IMG/VR virus record: IMGVR_UViG_3300006868_000023
Coordinates: 1-55,840 of that record
Origin: a virus
Length of the DNA stretch: 55,840 nt
Direction: 5' to 3' (one strand)
In this document: positions 2,820 to 40,712 of the stretch, piece by piece
Layout of the letters: every line of letters starts with the position of its first letter
How positions within the stretch are numbered: position 1 is the stretch's first letter
The notes under the pieces: model-generated
Databases searched by the model: none
The model's input: only the letters and a program-made list of their open reading frames with translations
Told to the model about the DNA's origin: nothing
Program-made: the position numbers and the translations under genes

Positions 2820-3927
2820 ACGTGATGTAAAATTAGATTACAGTGATGTGCTGTTTAGACCTAAACGTAGCGAAATTGGCAGTCGCAAAGATGTTGATTT
2901 ACATCGAACATACACTTTTAGAAACAGTGGTAAAACATACAGTGGTGTACCTATCATGGCCGCTAACATGGATGGTGTTGGCACATTTGAAATGGCACTA
3001 CCACTTGCAAAAAAAGGTATGTTTACTTGTTTAGCAAAAAGTTATGACCCAGCAGACATTTGGGATTGGCTAAACAACAATCCATACAAAGATGATCTAT
3101 GTAAAACTATTGCTGTAAGCACTGGTATCACAGACTTTGATTTAGAACGTGTAACAAAAACACTTAAATTAAGCAGAAGCATTGACTTTGTTTGCATTGA
3201 TGTAGCAAATGGATATTCGGAAAGGTTCATAGACTTTGTTAAAAAGTTTAGAGAAAATAATCCAAACGTAACAATTATTGCAGGTAATGTTGTAACACCT
3301 GATATCACAGAGGAGTTGATACTAAATGGAGCAGATATCGTTAAAGTTGGTATTGGGCCTGGCAGTGTTTGTACTACTAGGATTAAGACTGGTGTTGGGT
3401 ACCCGCAGTTATCCGCAGTCATTGAGTGTGCTGACGCCGCTCACGGTCTTGGTGGACACATCATTGCTGATGGCGGTTGTAGTAGTCCTGGAGATGTAGC
3501 CAAAGCATTTGGAGCAGGTGCCGATTTTGTAATGCTGGGTGGTATGTTAGCAGGTACAGATGAAGGCGGAGGCAAAGTTACCACTAAATATTATTACACT
3601 GATGAGAAAAATACCGGTGCGGCAAGTGGTAGCAGACAAACCGTAGAAAAAAGTTTTGTAGAATTCTATGGCATGAGTTCTACATCAGCACAGGAGAAAC
3701 ATGGTGGAACAAAAGAGTACAGAGCAAGTGAAGGTAGAGTTGTACGAGTACCTTACAAAGGTCCTATTGAACCCGTTATCGGAGACATACTTGGTGGTCT
3801 CCGCAGTACTTGTACTTATGTTGGTGCAAAGAGTCTAAAAGAATTAAGTAAACGCACAACTTTTGTGCAGGTTAATAACGGAAAGCAGTTTAATACAACT
3901 TACGAACCATTTACTGTAGGTGAATAA
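2809..3927 (+). CDS. guaC: GMP reductase (IMPDH/GMPR family)
   Basis: A 372-residue TIM-barrel enzyme converting GMP to IMP and ammonia with NADPH. The catalytic loop [13 protein letters not shown] is intact with the nucleophilic Cys near residue 188, followed by KTGVGYPQ, which is typical of GMP reductase. IADGG and [11 protein letters not shown], which bind the phosphate, follow. There are no CBS domains and length is near that of GuaC rather than IMPDH (about 490). It sits directly before nadE, suggesting a purine and NAD salvage block. A TATAAATA-like box follows its stop codon. Confidence 0.88.
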
Positions 3928-36700: not shown

Positions 36701-37635
36701 AGACTGTAATTGAATCAACAACTGTACAAACTGAAGATGCAATCTTCCGTGTAAACAGCAATGGTGCAAATACAGACGCTGGTTTCGAAGCAAACGCAAA
36801 TGGCACAATCAAGCAGATTCTTTATACATCTGTAGGCCAAGAGTGGGACTTCGGTTCAGAAAATGTTAAAGCAAGTACATTCGAAGGTGACTTAACTGGT
36901 GATGTAACTGGTAGTATCTCAGGTGCAACTGGTACATTTACAGGTGCAGTTACTGGTGGTTCATTAACTGATGGAACTGCTACATTAAGTAGTGGTGCAT
37001 TAAGTGGTGCAACAACTGGTGCATTCAGTGGTACAGTTACAGCAAATGCGTTTAGTGGTAACTTAACTGGTGATGTAACTGGTGACTTAACTGGTGATGT
37101 AACTGGTAATTTAACAGGTGACGTAAGTTTTGGTACATTAACAGACTCAGGTGAGAGCATTGCTATTACTAAGTTTGTTGATGAAGCAGATGGCATTGCA
37201 AGTAATGATAACGACACTAGCATTCCAACCTCAGCGGCAGTCATTGACTATGTTGAGAACAATGGTGGTGACGGCTTATTACTTAGACAAGCATTAACTA
37301 GCGGTAGTACAACTATCGATACTAGTGCTATGCCAAATATATCAAGCAGAACTTACTATGCACAGAAGATTGTAATCAAGATTGGAACAGCATTTAGTGG
37401 TGGTTCTTTCAACCATATTCTTGTTAAAGAGAATGCAGGTAGTGGAACAACATTAGTAGCGGCTGATGACGCTGATGCGGCAACAGCAGGTACTTACATC
37501 ATCGAATTAGATGGTGACGCAACACTAACTAAGAATGCGGCTGTACAAGTCCAGTTCATGCAGGCAGATGGTACAACACCAGCCACAACAAGTGGAGGAG
37601 CAGGTACAATCTCAGTACATTATAACTATGTCTAA
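33775..37635 (+). CDS. very long tail-fibre protein with internal repeats, 1286 aa
   Basis: A highly repetitive beta-structured fibre. A long module (SNRYFTNARARSAI ... STAIPVITVDQQGRxTSAS) occurs at three places, and shorter units such as TATLSSGALSGATT and GDVTGDLTGDVTGN repeat near residues 650-790 and 1060-1120. The repeats are also visible at DNA level, which can drive recombination and length variation. The C-terminal cap resembles that of the 31640 protein. Late expression; a bidirectional terminator follows. Likely a long tail fibre; the host receptor is unknown. Confidence 0.85.
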   Translation: MADIKNFGIKGLSSDVQLGKGGGKVKYDSSNNRFDLTQSDGSTLENLRLGAITAGSWNGSAIGSQYGGLGGDNSSSTGIVSFSSGTASVAAIDLSDSNLIDSSSQLPVAQGGTGASTSGGARTNLGLGSIATQDSNNVSITGGTVDGVVIGGSTAAAGSFTTINASSTITGDLTGDVTGTVSDISNHDTDSLGEGSSNRYFTNARARSAISVTDSGGDGSLAYNSSTGVITYTGPSAAEVRAHFSGGTGITITSGQIDLDDTAVTPASYGSTTAIPVITVDQQGRITSASTASISTSFTISDGSNTETVNGGDTLTFAGTANEVEVAVSATDTVTIGLPSDVTVSNNLTVSGSFLSDDITASAVSIAGDATITGNLTVQGTQTTVNSTTVETADAIFRVNSNGTTGTDVGFEANVGGTAKQIVYTGAGSKWSVGSETFVAATFEGDLTGDVTGTVSDISNHDTGDLAEGSNQYHTPARARSAISAGGDLSYNSSTGVMSFTERTDAEVRGLISVTDAGGDGSLAYNSSTGVITYTGPSAAEVRAHFSGGTGLTITSGQIDLDDTAVTPGNYGSSTAIPVITVDQQGRLTSASTASISTSWTLTGDSGSEVVNGGDTVLVAGGTNITTAVSATDTVTVNLDSDISLTNVTISDTFTDGTLSIAGGEITGAGNITASGAVTGGSLTDGTATLSSGALSGATTVTASGAVTGGSLTDGTATLSSGALTGATNGTFSGTVTGGTLTDGTLSASSGAITGATNITASGTVQYGSLSDGSITINGFVDEDNMASDSASLVPTQQSVKAYVDAQLTAQDLDFQGDTGGALSIDLDSQTLDIAGGTGIETAGSGQTLTVTLSDTAVTPGNYGSSTAIPVITVDQQGRLTSASTASISTSWTLTDGSNSETVNGGDTVTIQGTTNEVDVVVGATDTVTIGLPNDVTIGNNLTVTGSFLSDDITSSSISIAGDATITGNLTVQGTQTVIESTTVQTEDAIFRVNSNGANTDAGFEANANGTIKQILYTSVGQEWDFGSENVKASTFEGDLTGDVTGSISGATGTFTGAVTGGSLTDGTATLSSGALSGATTGAFSGTVTANAFSGNLTGDVTGDLTGDVTGNLTGDVSFGTLTDSGESIAITKFVDEADGIASNDNDTSIPTSAAVIDYVENNGGDGLLLRQALTSGSTTIDTSAMPNISSRTYYAQKIVIKIGTAFSGGSFNHILVKENAGSGTTLVAADDADAATAGTYIIELDGDATLTKNAAVQVQFMQADGTTPATTSGGAGTISVHYNYV
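35760..36060 (+). repeat. tandem intragenic repeats in the long fibre gene
   Basis: Repeats of about 80-90 bp encode GAVTGGSLTDGTATLSSGA-type units, copied several times in a row here and once more near 36950-37020. They are in frame with the fibre and not spaced like a CRISPR array. Confidence 0.7.
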
Positions 37636-37651
37636 TTAATTTTAGATAACT

Positions 37652-37681
37652 AAAAAGGGCAGTTTAACTGCCCTTTTTTTT
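37652..37681. terminator. bidirectional rho-independent terminator
   Basis: AAAAAGGGCAGT/ACTGCCCTTTTT with a short TTA loop: T-runs on both strands end the fibre operon (plus) and the riboswitch-controlled gene (minus). Confidence 0.93.
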
Positions 37682-37685
37682 GACC

Positions 37686-37850
37686 TTAATACCAAGGATT
37701 GTTAGTCACATACTTAGGTAAAAATCTTTCCTTTTCACTTGGACCAAAAGCCTTTGCTATACGGTGATTCTTTGCCTGTGGGCTTAACAATTCTTTAGTA
37801 AGATCACGTTTGACTGCACGTTTGAAACGAGCAACTTCGAATTTAGTCAT
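37686..37850 (-). CDS. riboswitch-controlled basic protein, 54 aa
   Basis: Begins MTKFEVARFKRAVKRDLTK and ends VTNNPWY; about a quarter of residues are Lys or Arg. AGGAG lies 7 bases upstream of the ATG. Two tandem glutamine riboswitches precede it and a bidirectional terminator follows it, so the whole unit is one gene. It has no known family. In cyanobacteria glutamine riboswitches control small basic proteins that inactivate glutamine synthetase, so a similar role is a reasonable hypothesis, but no sequence match to those factors is visible. Confidence 0.7.
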   Translation of the reverse strand: MTKFEVARFKRAVKRDLTKELLSPQAKNHRIAKAFGPSEKERFLPKYVTNNPWY

Positions 37851-37870
37851 GTCAATCTCCTAATGAAGAT

Positions 37871-37920
37871 TGCGTTCCTTCAGCACCATTGCCTACTTCC
37901 GTCCCAAAGGGATGAACGTA
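37871..37920 (-). promoter_or_regulatory. glutamine riboswitch (glnA RNA motif), copy 2 (proximal)
   Basis: Read on the minus strand: CGTTCATCC, a short hairpin (CCCTTTGGG), GGACGGAAGTAGG and GAAGGAACGC in order, the conserved blocks of the glnA/Downstream-peptide glutamine aptamer. CGTTC pairs with GAACG as the closing stem. It lies about 20 bases upstream of the 54-aa gene. Confidence 0.88.
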
Positions 37921-37925
37921 ACAAT

Positions 37926-37978
37926 GCGTTCCTTCGTCACAATTGACTACTTCCGTCCTATTGAATAGGATGAACGTA
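37926..37978 (-). promoter_or_regulatory. glutamine riboswitch (glnA RNA motif), copy 1 (distal)
   Basis: On the minus strand CGTTCATCC, TATTCAATA hairpin, GGACGGAAGTAG and GAAGGAACGC, in the same order as copy 2, which follows after a few bases. The two copies differ in loop sequence but keep the aptamer core. Confidence 0.88.
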
Positions 37979-37982
37979 ATAT

Positions 37983-37990
37983 TATTTATA
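37983..37990 (-). promoter_or_regulatory. perfect TATAAATA late box driving the riboswitch
   Basis: On the minus strand TATAAATA overlaps the stop codon of the upstream 70-aa gene. With T4 late spacing the RNA would begin about 37977, at the 5' end of the distal aptamer. Confidence 0.8.
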
Positions 37991-38198
37991 CTTTTTCGTT
38001 CACAAATGCGTACAGTTTTCGTGCTTCAGCAATTACATCTTCTGATGAAATTTCAATAACAGGTGCTTGTTGGCCTGCTCTTTCTTCATCACTTCTTGAG
38101 TAAAATGCGTTGGTTTGTTGGTCTCTGTTTTCTATTAAAATAGATTGAGCCATTCCTAAGATATCGGTTCGTAGTTCGAACCCACTTTTACTTGACAT
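37986..38198 (-). CDS. hypothetical protein, 70 aa
   Basis: Unrecognised acidic, helical protein (MSSKSGFELRTDILGMAQSIL). Similar short proteins are familiar from marine T4-like phages but have no function. AAGGAG precedes the ATG. Its stop overlaps the TATAAATA box of the riboswitch unit. Confidence 0.65.
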   Translation of the reverse strand: MSSKSGFELRTDILGMAQSILIENRDQQTNAFYSRSDEERAGQQAPVIEISSEDVIAEARKLYAFVNEKV

Positions 38199-38256: not shown

Positions 38257-38583
38257 TTAGGATTCTAACTGTACAATTTTTATGGCTTCTTCTACAGAGT
38301 ATGGACTGGACTCTGCCATTGGTGGTTTGGTTTCATAGATATTCTCATACTTCTCAACCATGTCAGCATTGATTTGTATGAAAGGTTTTTCTGCTTCTGG
38401 TACATCTATCTCATCATAGATTGCATCTACTGGACATTCAGGTACACATAATCCACAATCAATACATTCGTCTGGATCTATAACCAACATGTTTGGTCCT
38501 TCATAAAAGCAATCCACAGGGCAAACCTGTACGCAATGTGTGTCCTTACAGCCGACACAAGCACTAGTAACTACAAAAGCCAT
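38257..38583 (-). CDS. fdxA: 7Fe (3Fe-4S/4Fe-4S) ferredoxin, FdxA type
   Basis: A 108-residue protein beginning MAFVVTSACVGCKDTHCVQVCPVDCFYEGPNMLVI (in two parts) with Cys at 9, 12, 17, 21, 25 and 40, 43, 46, 50, the pattern of Azotobacter FdI-like ferredoxins: one 3Fe-4S and one 4Fe-4S cluster. EGPNMLVIDPDECIDCG matches the family consensus. It is a low-potential electron carrier. The next gene upstream in the same unit is a 2OG-Fe(II) oxygenase-like protein; it could also serve the two radical SAM proteins. Clear proteobacterial flavour. Confidence 0.95.
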   Translation of the reverse strand: MAFVVTSACVGCKDTHCVQVCPVDCFYEGPNMLVIDPDECIDCGLCVPECPVDAIYDEIDVPEAEKPFIQINADMVEKYENIYETKPPMAESSPYSVEEAIKIVQLES

Positions 38584-38584
38584 T

Positions 38585-39184
38585 TTATCCTTTCTGAAAT
38601 TCTGGTTTTAATTCTATATGATATGTGCAACTAAATACCAGTGTTCTTCTGTTTGACAAGTTTGGTGTTAGCCCCCACGGTATATGGCTAGGCCAAAATA
38701 AAACTTTACCTGGTTTTCCATGCTTTACAATATTTGACTGAGACACCATAGGTGGTGTTGACCAACGTTTATCACCAAAGTGTTCAAAGTAAATACTGGA
38801 ACCTTTCTTTGCACTATCATCTATATCGAGGAACACCAATGCTGAATACCATCTGAGTCTTTCAGCACTTAGTGGAAAATTATGTTTAGGATTAACAGAT
38901 ATAAATTTACTATTTGCACATGTAACATCTATTTGTGCTGAATTTAATTTATAGTAATCAAAAACTTTTTGATGAAAAACATTACCAACAACCTGTATAA
39001 GTTTCTTGGTCTTGTCTAACGTACTATTCTCACCTGTAATGAATCCAAAGTTAGTCTCTACTATTGGAAGTTTATCAACCTCATCAACAATGTCATATAT
39101 CATGTCACTGTCTAATTCTAATTGTCCATCAAAAACTAAATCTGGAAACACAGGTGTAATATTCCAACCTAGTGATTTCCTCAT
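38585..39184 (-). CDS. 2OG-Fe(II) oxygenase-like protein, 199 aa
   Basis: Start at 39184 (MRKSLGWNITP), preceded by a late-like box at 5 bases; the open frame goes further upstream but through a promoter region. The double-stranded beta-helix pattern is visible: YSALVFLDIDD, GSSIYFEHFGD, GKVLFWPSHIPWGLTPNLSNRRTLVFSC, with W/P-S-x-x-x-H-G-like and R near the end as the 2-oxoglutarate ligand. The first His-x-Asp is not clear. Substrate unknown (nucleic acid, protein or sugar). Its stop is one base before the fdxA start. Confidence 0.6.
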   Translation of the reverse strand: MRKSLGWNITPVFPDLVFDGQLELDSDMIYDIVDEVDKLPIVETNFGFITGENSTLDKTKKLIQVVGNVFHQKVFDYYKLNSAQIDVTCANSKFISVNPKHNFPLSAERLRWYSALVFLDIDDSAKKGSSIYFEHFGDKRWSTPPMVSQSNIVKHGKPGKVLFWPSHIPWGLTPNLSNRRTLVFSCTYHIELKPEFQKG

Positions 39185-39189
39185 ACTAC

Positions 39190-39197
39190 TATTTACC
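39190..39197 (-). promoter_or_regulatory. late-like box with predicted +1 at an ATG
   Basis: GGTAAATA on the minus strand, 5 bases (GTAGT) and the ATG at 39184. Identical TAAATAGTAGTATG to the 8211 region. Confidence 0.5.
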
Positions 39198-39214
39198 CAT
39201 ATTGCAAATTGCAC

Positions 39215-39242
39215 TTGACATATAATGATTGTGCAGTATAAT
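39215..39242 (+). promoter_or_regulatory. consensus sigma70 promoter
   Basis: TTGACA (39215-39220), 16-bp spacer, TATAAT (39237-39242). It diverges from the minus-strand late box at 39190. Confidence 0.85.
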
Positions 39243-39269
39243 ATAGTTTTTATGAATAGTAGGTTAGTT

Positions 39270-40712
39270 ATGGACAACTTTTGGGCATTACTTTGTACAG
39301 TTTTAGTAGTTGGGTGTGGAGGCAGTGGAACATCACCTGCTGTTGGATTACAACCATTAAACCCAGCACCTCCTCCAGCAACACCACAATGGCAAGAACA
39401 ACCGGTTGTGTTGCCAAATCCAAATACTTATTTTGTTACAACGTGTATGGAACCTGTGATACAATTTGTGTTGCCTACAAAATTAAATGATGACGAACAC
39501 ACAGATTTTATTGTTCACTACTGGTGTGGCATACCGTACGGCGGACCTGTTGATCTTGTTGATCCTACTGATGATTTATTAGTAGCATGGGCAAGTGATG
39601 GACTAGGTTCATATAGTGTTGTAAATTACGAAGTGTTTGGAGATTCATATCCTGAACTGGGTTCTGCAAGTAGGAAGGTTGCTGTCAAAGACATTAACGA
39701 TGACGGTATGCCTGACTTTGCATTTGCAACAAACAGTGAGGATGGTAGACTTACTGGTGGTGCTGATGATCAAGATCAAGCATACGCAAACGGTGCCTAT
39801 CCTACTATACTTCTAAGTGGAGAAAATTTCACATACACAATCAACAACATAGGGATATGGGATTGGGGACATGCCGTAGACTTTGCTCCTAATGGTGATG
39901 CTGTGTTTGCTGGTTACTTGTGGACAGCAGACCAACAAGCATTTAGATTACAAGACAATGAATTTGTAGATGTATCAAACGAGTATCCATTAATACTTGC
40001 CAACGCATTTAGATTTGGAACAGAGTATCTTGTAAATGCAACTGTGCCTAACGGTATAAATGCAATTGAATTATGGCAAAACAAAACCTTAGTTGACGTG
40101 TGGTTACGTGAACCATTGTTTAGTGTTGATGTGTCAGGCGTATTAACACCAGTAGTAAACGTTAATGGCATGTTGGTGTATAATGGAGCAATAAACGATA
40201 TCTGTGTAATGGATATTAATGATGTAGAAACCTTTGTGTTTCACACCAGCACATATAGATTAAAAGATGGCAGTGATTTGCAAGAAGGATACAACTATAA
40301 CACAGATGATTTTTCAGAAGCAATTATGTTAGAGTTTTTTCAAGTTGAAAACAATGCATTAGTGCTAAAAGAAAATCCTTTAGAGCAAACATACGATGCA
40401 TCATTTAACTTCTTTACTTGCACAGACATAAACAATGATGGATTAGATGATATACAGATTCAAAAGTGGAGCGGTAGGCATGGAGAATCCAGAGAAACAG
40501 GTGGGATACCAGATGTTTTCCTACAACATTCCTCAGGTTTTGATAGATTAGATACATCAGACTGGCCTACATACAGCACATTACACGAAAGAACACAAAG
40601 AGTAGGCGATTTATACGACATAAACAGTGACGGATTTGCTGATTTGATACTGTATGAATCAGATGTTGCACTAGGTGATATTGAAATTTACTTAGGAAAC
40701 AAAGACTTATAA
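39270..40712 (+). CDS. lipoprotein with FG-GAP/VCBS-type calcium repeats, 480 aa
   Basis: N-terminus MDNFWALLCTVLVVGCGGSG has a lipobox (LVVGC). The upstream ATG at 39252 would give a longer signal peptide but lies only 9 bases from the -10 and has no ribosome site, so the ATG at 39270 after AGGTTAG is preferred. Asp-rich repeats (DINDDGMPDF, DINNDGLDDI, DINSDGFADL) mark calcium-binding FG-GAP/VCBS blades as in integrin-type propellers. It may decorate the host outer surface or the virion. Early promoter and terminal position are in keeping with a host-modifying protein. Confidence 0.75.
   Translation: MDNFWALLCTVLVVGCGGSGTSPAVGLQPLNPAPPPATPQWQEQPVVLPNPNTYFVTTCMEPVIQFVLPTKLNDDEHTDFIVHYWCGIPYGGPVDLVDPTDDLLVAWASDGLGSYSVVNYEVFGDSYPELGSASRKVAVKDINDDGMPDFAFATNSEDGRLTGGADDQDQAYANGAYPTILLSGENFTYTINNIGIWDWGHAVDFAPNGDAVFAGYLWTADQQAFRLQDNEFVDVSNEYPLILANAFRFGTEYLVNATVPNGINAIELWQNKTLVDVWLREPLFSVDVSGVLTPVVNVNGMLVYNGAINDICVMDINDVETFVFHTSTYRLKDGSDLQEGYNYNTDDFSEAIMLEFFQVENNALVLKENPLEQTYDASFNFFTCTDINNDGLDDIQIQKWSGRHGESRETGGIPDVFLQHSSGFDRLDTSDWPTYSTLHERTQRVGDLYDINSDGFADLILYESDVALGDIEIYLGNKDL

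Follow-up and report, generated by a model that had tools for sequence, protein, structure and literature searches.

Glutamine riboswitches are described as being tied mostly to DUF4278 proteins. They are also described as restricted to cyanobacteria (PMC6316151). The glnA and Downstream-peptide motifs, their tandem copies and the small ORFs behind the Downstream-peptide motif were reported by Weinberg 2010 (PMC2864571), glutamine riboswitches have been listed in cyanophages with no target assigned (PMC9964418, PMC9602691), and for the one found in the phage Melnitz a tmRNA was proposed as the target (PMC9004378). The presence of these RNAs in phages, the tandem copies and the small downstream ORFs are thus already known; new in the locus considered here are the protein family, referred to as family A, its probable link to SAR86, the promoter difference and the hairpin geometry.

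The locus lies in a viral DNA fragment of 55,840 nt from IMG/VR (IMGVR_UViG_3300006868_000023; the whole fragment is referred to as the window). This 55.8-kb fragment encodes a T4-type clamp loader, a DNA polymerase and PhoH, the nearest polymerases being those of Rhizobiales jumbo phages (47%). The type 1 riboswitch, for example that of gifB of Synechocystis, agrees with the window unit in the sequence and structure of the aptamer and in the small basic protein encoded downstream, and some of its known instances are tandem (PMC2864571). The window unit differs from it in that it resides in a phage whose polymerase is not of the cyanophage type, stands behind a late promoter box, has a short expression platform with a hairpin starting at the predicted linchpin base, and has a target other than DUF4278. 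The Downstream-peptide riboswitch of marine picocyanobacteria resembles the window unit in that the aptamer is followed by short ORFs with no assigned function (17-100 aa, PMC2864571), but its aptamer belongs to a different family. In Melnitz, a marine T4-like myophage, the same aptamer also precedes a small ORF; there, however, the aptamer is single, the small protein is another one and a tmRNA lies upstream, whereas the window unit is tandem and has no tmRNA.

The reading that we prefer, and regard as fairly probable, is that the unit is a cassette of a marine phage of the T4 superfamily, comprising a late promoter, two type-1 glutamine aptamers, an anti-Shine-Dalgarno (anti-SD) hairpin, a 54-aa basic protein and a terminator, which works as an ON switch and represents a captured SAR86 nitrogen-status gene.

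Arrangement of the unit

The features of the unit, all on the minus strand, are listed in Table 1. In a scan of the whole window with Rfam models, RF01739 (glutamine, glnA) matched at 37978-37923 (56.8 bits, E 6.3e-10) and at 37920-37869 (55.5 bits, E 1.5e-9). Both matches are full-length (model positions 1-53 of 53) and exceed the gathering score of 35 bits, so that the tandem glnA-type aptamers named in the initial annotation stand. Of the two models suggested there for this region, the other, Downstream-peptide (type 2, RF01704), had no match in the same scan. No further glutamine aptamers were found in the fragment beyond this pair, and no tmRNA was found within the window.

Table 1. Features of the tandem glutamine aptamer unit and adjacent genes in the window
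Feature	Position	Strand	Basis
TATAAATA, T4-type late promoter box, overlapping the stop codon of the upstream 70-aa ORF	37983..37990	-	sequence; position enriched in viral homologues
Glutamine aptamer 1; P1 CGTTC..GAACG; P3 GTCAATTGTGAC	37927..37976	-	RF01739, 56.8 bits; aptamer-1 class kept across family A
Linker CATTGTTA, 8 nt, between the aptamers	37919..37926	-	6-11 nt in 47 tandem viral loci
Glutamine aptamer 2; P1 CGTTC..GAACG; P3 GGCAATGGTGCT	37873..37918	-	RF01739, 55.5 bits
C directly 3' of aptamer 2 P1; predicted linchpin C60 counterpart and first base of the anti-SD hairpin	37872	-	C in 131/131 viral loci with an ORF
Anti-Shine-Dalgarno hairpin CAATCTTC-ATTA-GGAGATTG, 8 bp, -8.4 kcal/mol	37853..37872	-	arms covary across loci
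SD AGGAG, mostly within the 3' arm of the anti-SD hairpin	37861-37857	-	sequence
Family A ORF, 54 aa, Lys/Arg-rich, MTKFEVARFKRAVKRDL...LPKYVTNNPWY	37686..37850	-	relatives in IMG/VR and SAR86 chromosomes; pN/pS
Intrinsic terminator AAGGGCAGTT/AACTGCCCTT with a T-run	37651..37675	-	sequence
Upstream 70-aa ORF, no Pfam match, outside the unit	37986..38198	-	same strand
Ferredoxin (4Fe-4S) gene, upstream, context only	38257..38583	-	same strand

The other elements of that annotation, namely AGGAG, the Lys/Arg-rich ORF of 54 residues and the terminator, are all present, and the comparative data given below strengthen them. The stretch between aptamer 2 and the ATG (37850) is 22 nt long and contains AGGAG. 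The terminator likely acts bidirectionally, as a convergent ORF on the plus strand ends at 37635; given its position, the 54-aa ORF is the only gene between the late box and the terminator. Between the aptamers, the 3' strand of the first P1, the linker and the 5' strand of the second P1 (GAACG-linker-CGTTC) could form a competing 5-bp hairpin (-3.5 kcal/mol). We regard the anatomy of the unit and the status of the 54-aa ORF as a gene as near certain. Directly upstream, on the minus strand, the genes for ferredoxin and a 2OG-Fe(II) oxygenase occupy 38257-39277 of the window.

Position of the probable late promoter box

In T4 late promoters TATAAATA lies about 10 nt ahead of the RNA start. The box in the window ends 6 nt upstream of the aptamers, and with a T4-type late start the 5' end of the RNA is predicted at about the first aptamer base (~37977); both the sequence of the box and its position relative to the predicted 5' end are like those of T4 late promoters. 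The initial annotation had taken the single box as a late promoter. The window is AT-rich, and TATAAATA occurs in it three times, compared to approximately 5.7 occurrences expected over both strands; being no more common than by chance, the box alone provides no evidence. What upholds the assignment is the fixed position in homologous viral loci: among 121 non-redundant viral aptamer loci, TAAATA ends 5-9 nt ahead of the aptamer in 64 (1.6 +- 1.3 in shuffles), and the exact TATAAATA is found at that spacing in 24 (0.3 in shuffles). Based on the consensus and the position, a late promoter at this unit is likely, and it would make the unit run late in infection.

The protein family and its RNA leader

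A single-sequence search of IMG/VR yielded nine relatives of the 54-aa protein, and an alignment-based protein search, 45 family A loci. Since the scan used the protein only, it provides an unbiased test of the association with the aptamers. Among the distinct viral family A loci found in this way that had enough upstream DNA (n = 32, dereplicated), all have aptamers upstream, doubled in 28 of them, and a late-type box upstream. The family has conserved ends, MTKYQ..RAVK at the N-terminus and LPxYIxxNP[WF]Y at the C-terminus. The pN/pS ratio was 0.07-0.3 in several close pairs and 0.59 when pooled, the very closest pairs being uninformative or above 1. Close pairs of the family thus show purifying selection, and the 54-aa ORF is a real conserved gene.

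The AlphaFold model of the protein is confident only for an N-terminal helix (residues 3-21; pTM 0.41). No relatives were found among cultured phages, and sequence searches of Pfam, PHROGs and PDB gave no meaningful match; a match to Slu7 (E 0.09) was dismissed as a short-motif coincidence. Like the window protein, IF7/IF17 and the DUF4278 proteins are small and basic, and IF17 is also under a glutamine riboswitch; unlike DUF4278/IF17, the window protein has no profile match to DUF4278 or to any PDB chain. Neither the window protein nor its relatives bearing YRG matched DUF4278 (Pfam PF14105, YRG repeats), and hhalign comparison of family A with DUF4278 gave no link except for the few YRG-bearing members, which had a 21-column YRG match. 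Homology of the whole family to DUF4278 was not supported by the profile comparison. In three family members (L063, L088, L147) a YRG motif of the DUF4278 type is inserted between the conserved ends, and these might be an evolutionary bridge to DUF4278.

Expression platform and proposed direction of the switch

A stem of five or more base pairs that encloses the ribosome-binding site begins at the first base after P1 in 82% of the 131 viral loci, compared to 5% of shuffled sequences. The arms of this hairpin vary yet stay complementary (CAATCT/AGATTG, CATCT/AGATG, CACTC/GAGTG, CACTT/AAGTG). At arm positions 3-5, the fraction of Watson-Crick pairs is 0.60, as against 0.40 +- 0.02 for arms exchanged at random between loci (highest value in 2000 shuffles, 0.49). 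The conserved platform, together with the two full-length Rfam matches and the obligate link to one protein family, argues against a chance or decayed aptamer-like sequence devoid of function, an explanation to which we give almost no weight.

All 131 viral loci that have an ORF carry C as the first base of the hairpin. In the window this base is C37872, which we take to be the counterpart of C60 because it directly follows P1. Withholding it costs 2.9 kcal/mol in the window hairpin (from -8.4 to -5.5 kcal/mol), and the median cost over all platforms is 2.5 kcal/mol. In the glutamine riboswitch whose structure has been solved, G23 enters P1 when the ligand binds and pairs there with C60, the linchpin (PMC11477058), and both cyanobacterial types of glutamine riboswitch activate on glutamine (PMC6316151). 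The weakening of the hairpin upon loss of the C, combined with the activation in both cyanobacterial types, favours an ON switch of translation, and we consider this polarity probable. At low glutamine, the C that follows P1 of aptamer 2 would close the hairpin hiding the ribosome-binding site; when glutamine is bound, the same C would be taken into the G23-C60 linchpin pair, leaving the hairpin weaker by approximately 3 kcal/mol, so that translation of the 54-aa protein would be turned on. As -5.5 kcal/mol remains in the 8-bp hairpin without C60, the opening upon ligand binding may be partial.

This residual stability makes an OFF switch by coaxial stacking the main rival to the ON switch. 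With the same anatomy, P1 stabilised by glutamine would stack on the anti-SD hairpin without a linker and shut the ribosome-binding site, the protein being made at low glutamine. The hairpin beginning exactly after P1 in 82% of the loci is a geometry that favours such stacking, many platform stems are marginal without help, and amtB and glutamine synthetase genes of marine bacteria, which are expected to be off at high glutamine, also stand behind tandem aptamers. These bacterial leaders, however, have different, longer platforms; moreover, activation is the known mode of both types of glutamine riboswitch (PMC6316151), and when the ligand binds, the base after P1 joins the linchpin pair, which removes the first pair of the hairpin (PMC11477058). 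We therefore consider the OFF switch unlikely, though a serious competitor to the ON switch. One more candidate interaction, an anti-anti-SD pairing of AUUG in the linker with CAAU, is present in the window and fails for other linkers on inspection.

Chromosomal relatives in SAR86

Of 199 genomes from the order to which a SAR86 single-cell genome belongs, 6 had a family A match; the 641 genomes of three other orders (136 + 162 + 343) had none. Five SAR86 copies were examined, four of them complete and one ending at the contig end; tandem aptamers followed by the same platform are present in each, and no TAAATA box was seen in the upstream DNA inspected. One copy resides on a contig of 312,820 bp, and in four genomes the family A gene adjoins the same gene for a 312-aa dehydrogenase-like protein, among ordinary chromosomal genes. 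Aptamers 1 and 2 form separate classes that are kept across phages and SAR86, and over 58 nt, aptamer 1 of SAR86 copies and that of the viral contigs L078 and L119 are identical. Given the two classes and this identity, the double unit is old.

On these sequence comparisons, the double unit has most likely been exchanged between phage and SAR86, and the SAR86 link of the phage unit is probable. The closest cellular relatives are SAR86 genes behind the same kind of double switch, which suggests that the virus has acquired a nitrogen-sensing gene unit from bacteria; we infer that the transfer proceeded from host to phage and that SAR86 is the host of this phage. The nearest relatives of the window polymerase, those of Rhizobiales jumbo phages (47%), count against this choice of host. 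Our best guess for the 54-aa protein, and the weakest link in the proposed scheme, is a nitrogen-control microprotein. With glutamine in good supply, it might bind and adjust a protein of host nitrogen assimilation, be it glutamine synthetase, an ammonium transporter or a regulator, in the way known for the DUF4278 protein IF17 of cyanobacteria.

Alternatively, the protein could serve a late phage function unrelated to nitrogen (virion, packaging, lysis or host shut-off), the riboswitch only timing it by a host metabolite. The late-promoter position and the lack of a recognisable nitrogen-metabolism domain in the 54-aa protein agree with this, but the SAR86 chromosomal homologues have the same switch without the late box, and bacterial tandem aptamers of the same class precede genes for ammonium transporters, glutamine synthetase and DUF4278 proteins; a purely late function thus appears doubtful compared with a role in nitrogen control. 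The unit would offer a concrete example of a phage that uses RNA to sense a nitrogen metabolite of its host.

A search for an infected SAR86 single cell carrying a close relative of the window yielded only one distant polymerase (30% identity). SAR86 has a second basic protein of 52-54 aa under tandem glutamine aptamers, ending with KKDVFFPYYL (L222, L242, L243, L253, L267, L279, L298). No support was found for homology between family A and these 54-aa FFPYYL proteins, and the genome of ARRL01000006 (L279) had no family A match.

The Melnitz locus

The proposed tmRNA target can be considered for phage glutamine riboswitches in general, the small ORF then being incidental. The proposal draws on the two-piece tmRNA located just upstream of the aptamer in Melnitz and a few relatives (PMC9004378), but a tmRNA occurs at only 6 of approximately 136 viral aptamer loci, none of them in family A. 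In the Melnitz-type loci examined, the two-piece tmRNA reported by ARAGORN ends exactly 91 nt after the tag; given this constant end, the overlap of tmRNA and aptamer is an artefact of a fixed extension. In addition, the Melnitz aptamer is directly followed by a ribosome-binding site and a conserved ORF. Hence, control of tmRNA is a very improbable general explanation, the published target in Melnitz is probably wrong, and the data suggest that the target should be the small ORF instead. This ORF of 32 aa is not annotated in Melnitz (L003, MZ577095) and occupies positions 3071-3169.

Glutamine aptamers in other phages and bacteria

About a dozen small-ORF families (28-78 aa, mostly basic), unrelated to one another, stand behind viral glutamine aptamers, DUF4278-like YRG proteins being a minority among them. 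Among the matches listed, tandem glutamine aptamers were found in genomes labelled SAR86, SAR116, Pelagibacterales, SAR92 and Betaproteobacteria; with tandem aptamers in proteobacterial genomes, the description of glutamine riboswitches as restricted to cyanobacteria (PMC6316151) no longer holds. Judged by eye, the bacterial targets among these matches comprise glutamine synthetase and amtB-like genes, genes for DUF4278-like proteins, and small ORFs, of which some belong to the same families as in phages. Leaders of the small ORFs are short, with the hairpin at C60, whereas those of amtB and synthetase genes are longer and different. A usually doubled glutamine RNA fronts an unrelated microprotein family common to marine phages and SAR86, and further small-ORF families stand behind the same RNA in SAR86, SAR116 and betaproteobacteria.

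A broader scheme may be put forward tentatively, and we hold it to be somewhat less probable than its negation. T4-like phages of SAR86 could have captured a chromosomal gene for a glutamine-responsive microprotein together with its tandem riboswitch and swapped in a late promoter, so that the product, made late and in response to glutamine, would inhibit nitrogen assimilation in the host or act on it as an adaptor. Marine phages and their proteobacterial hosts would then draw on a common pool of about a dozen riboswitch-controlled microproteins, unrelated to one another, which would form an unrecognised layer of nitrogen control outside cyanobacteria.

Several individual loci may be mentioned. 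Two of the viral small-ORF families also occur behind tandem aptamers in betaproteobacterial and SAR116 genomes, WTQYCRRQA (L229, L247, L272, L295) and MTYxxYQWK (L282, L294). In SAR86-type Gammaproteobacteria, tandem aptamers with a different, longer leader precede a glutamine synthetase that by eye is apparently of the GSII type (L234, L236, L255, L260, L271). In marine Alphaproteobacteria (L224, L227, L230, L245 and many others), the aptamers, mostly doubled, precede amtB-like transporters, and some amtB-like loci have two aptamer sites approximately 2 kb apart. Finally, SAR86-type genomes have three consecutive aptamers ahead of the gene for an outer-membrane-like protein of 200 aa (L225, L232, L257).
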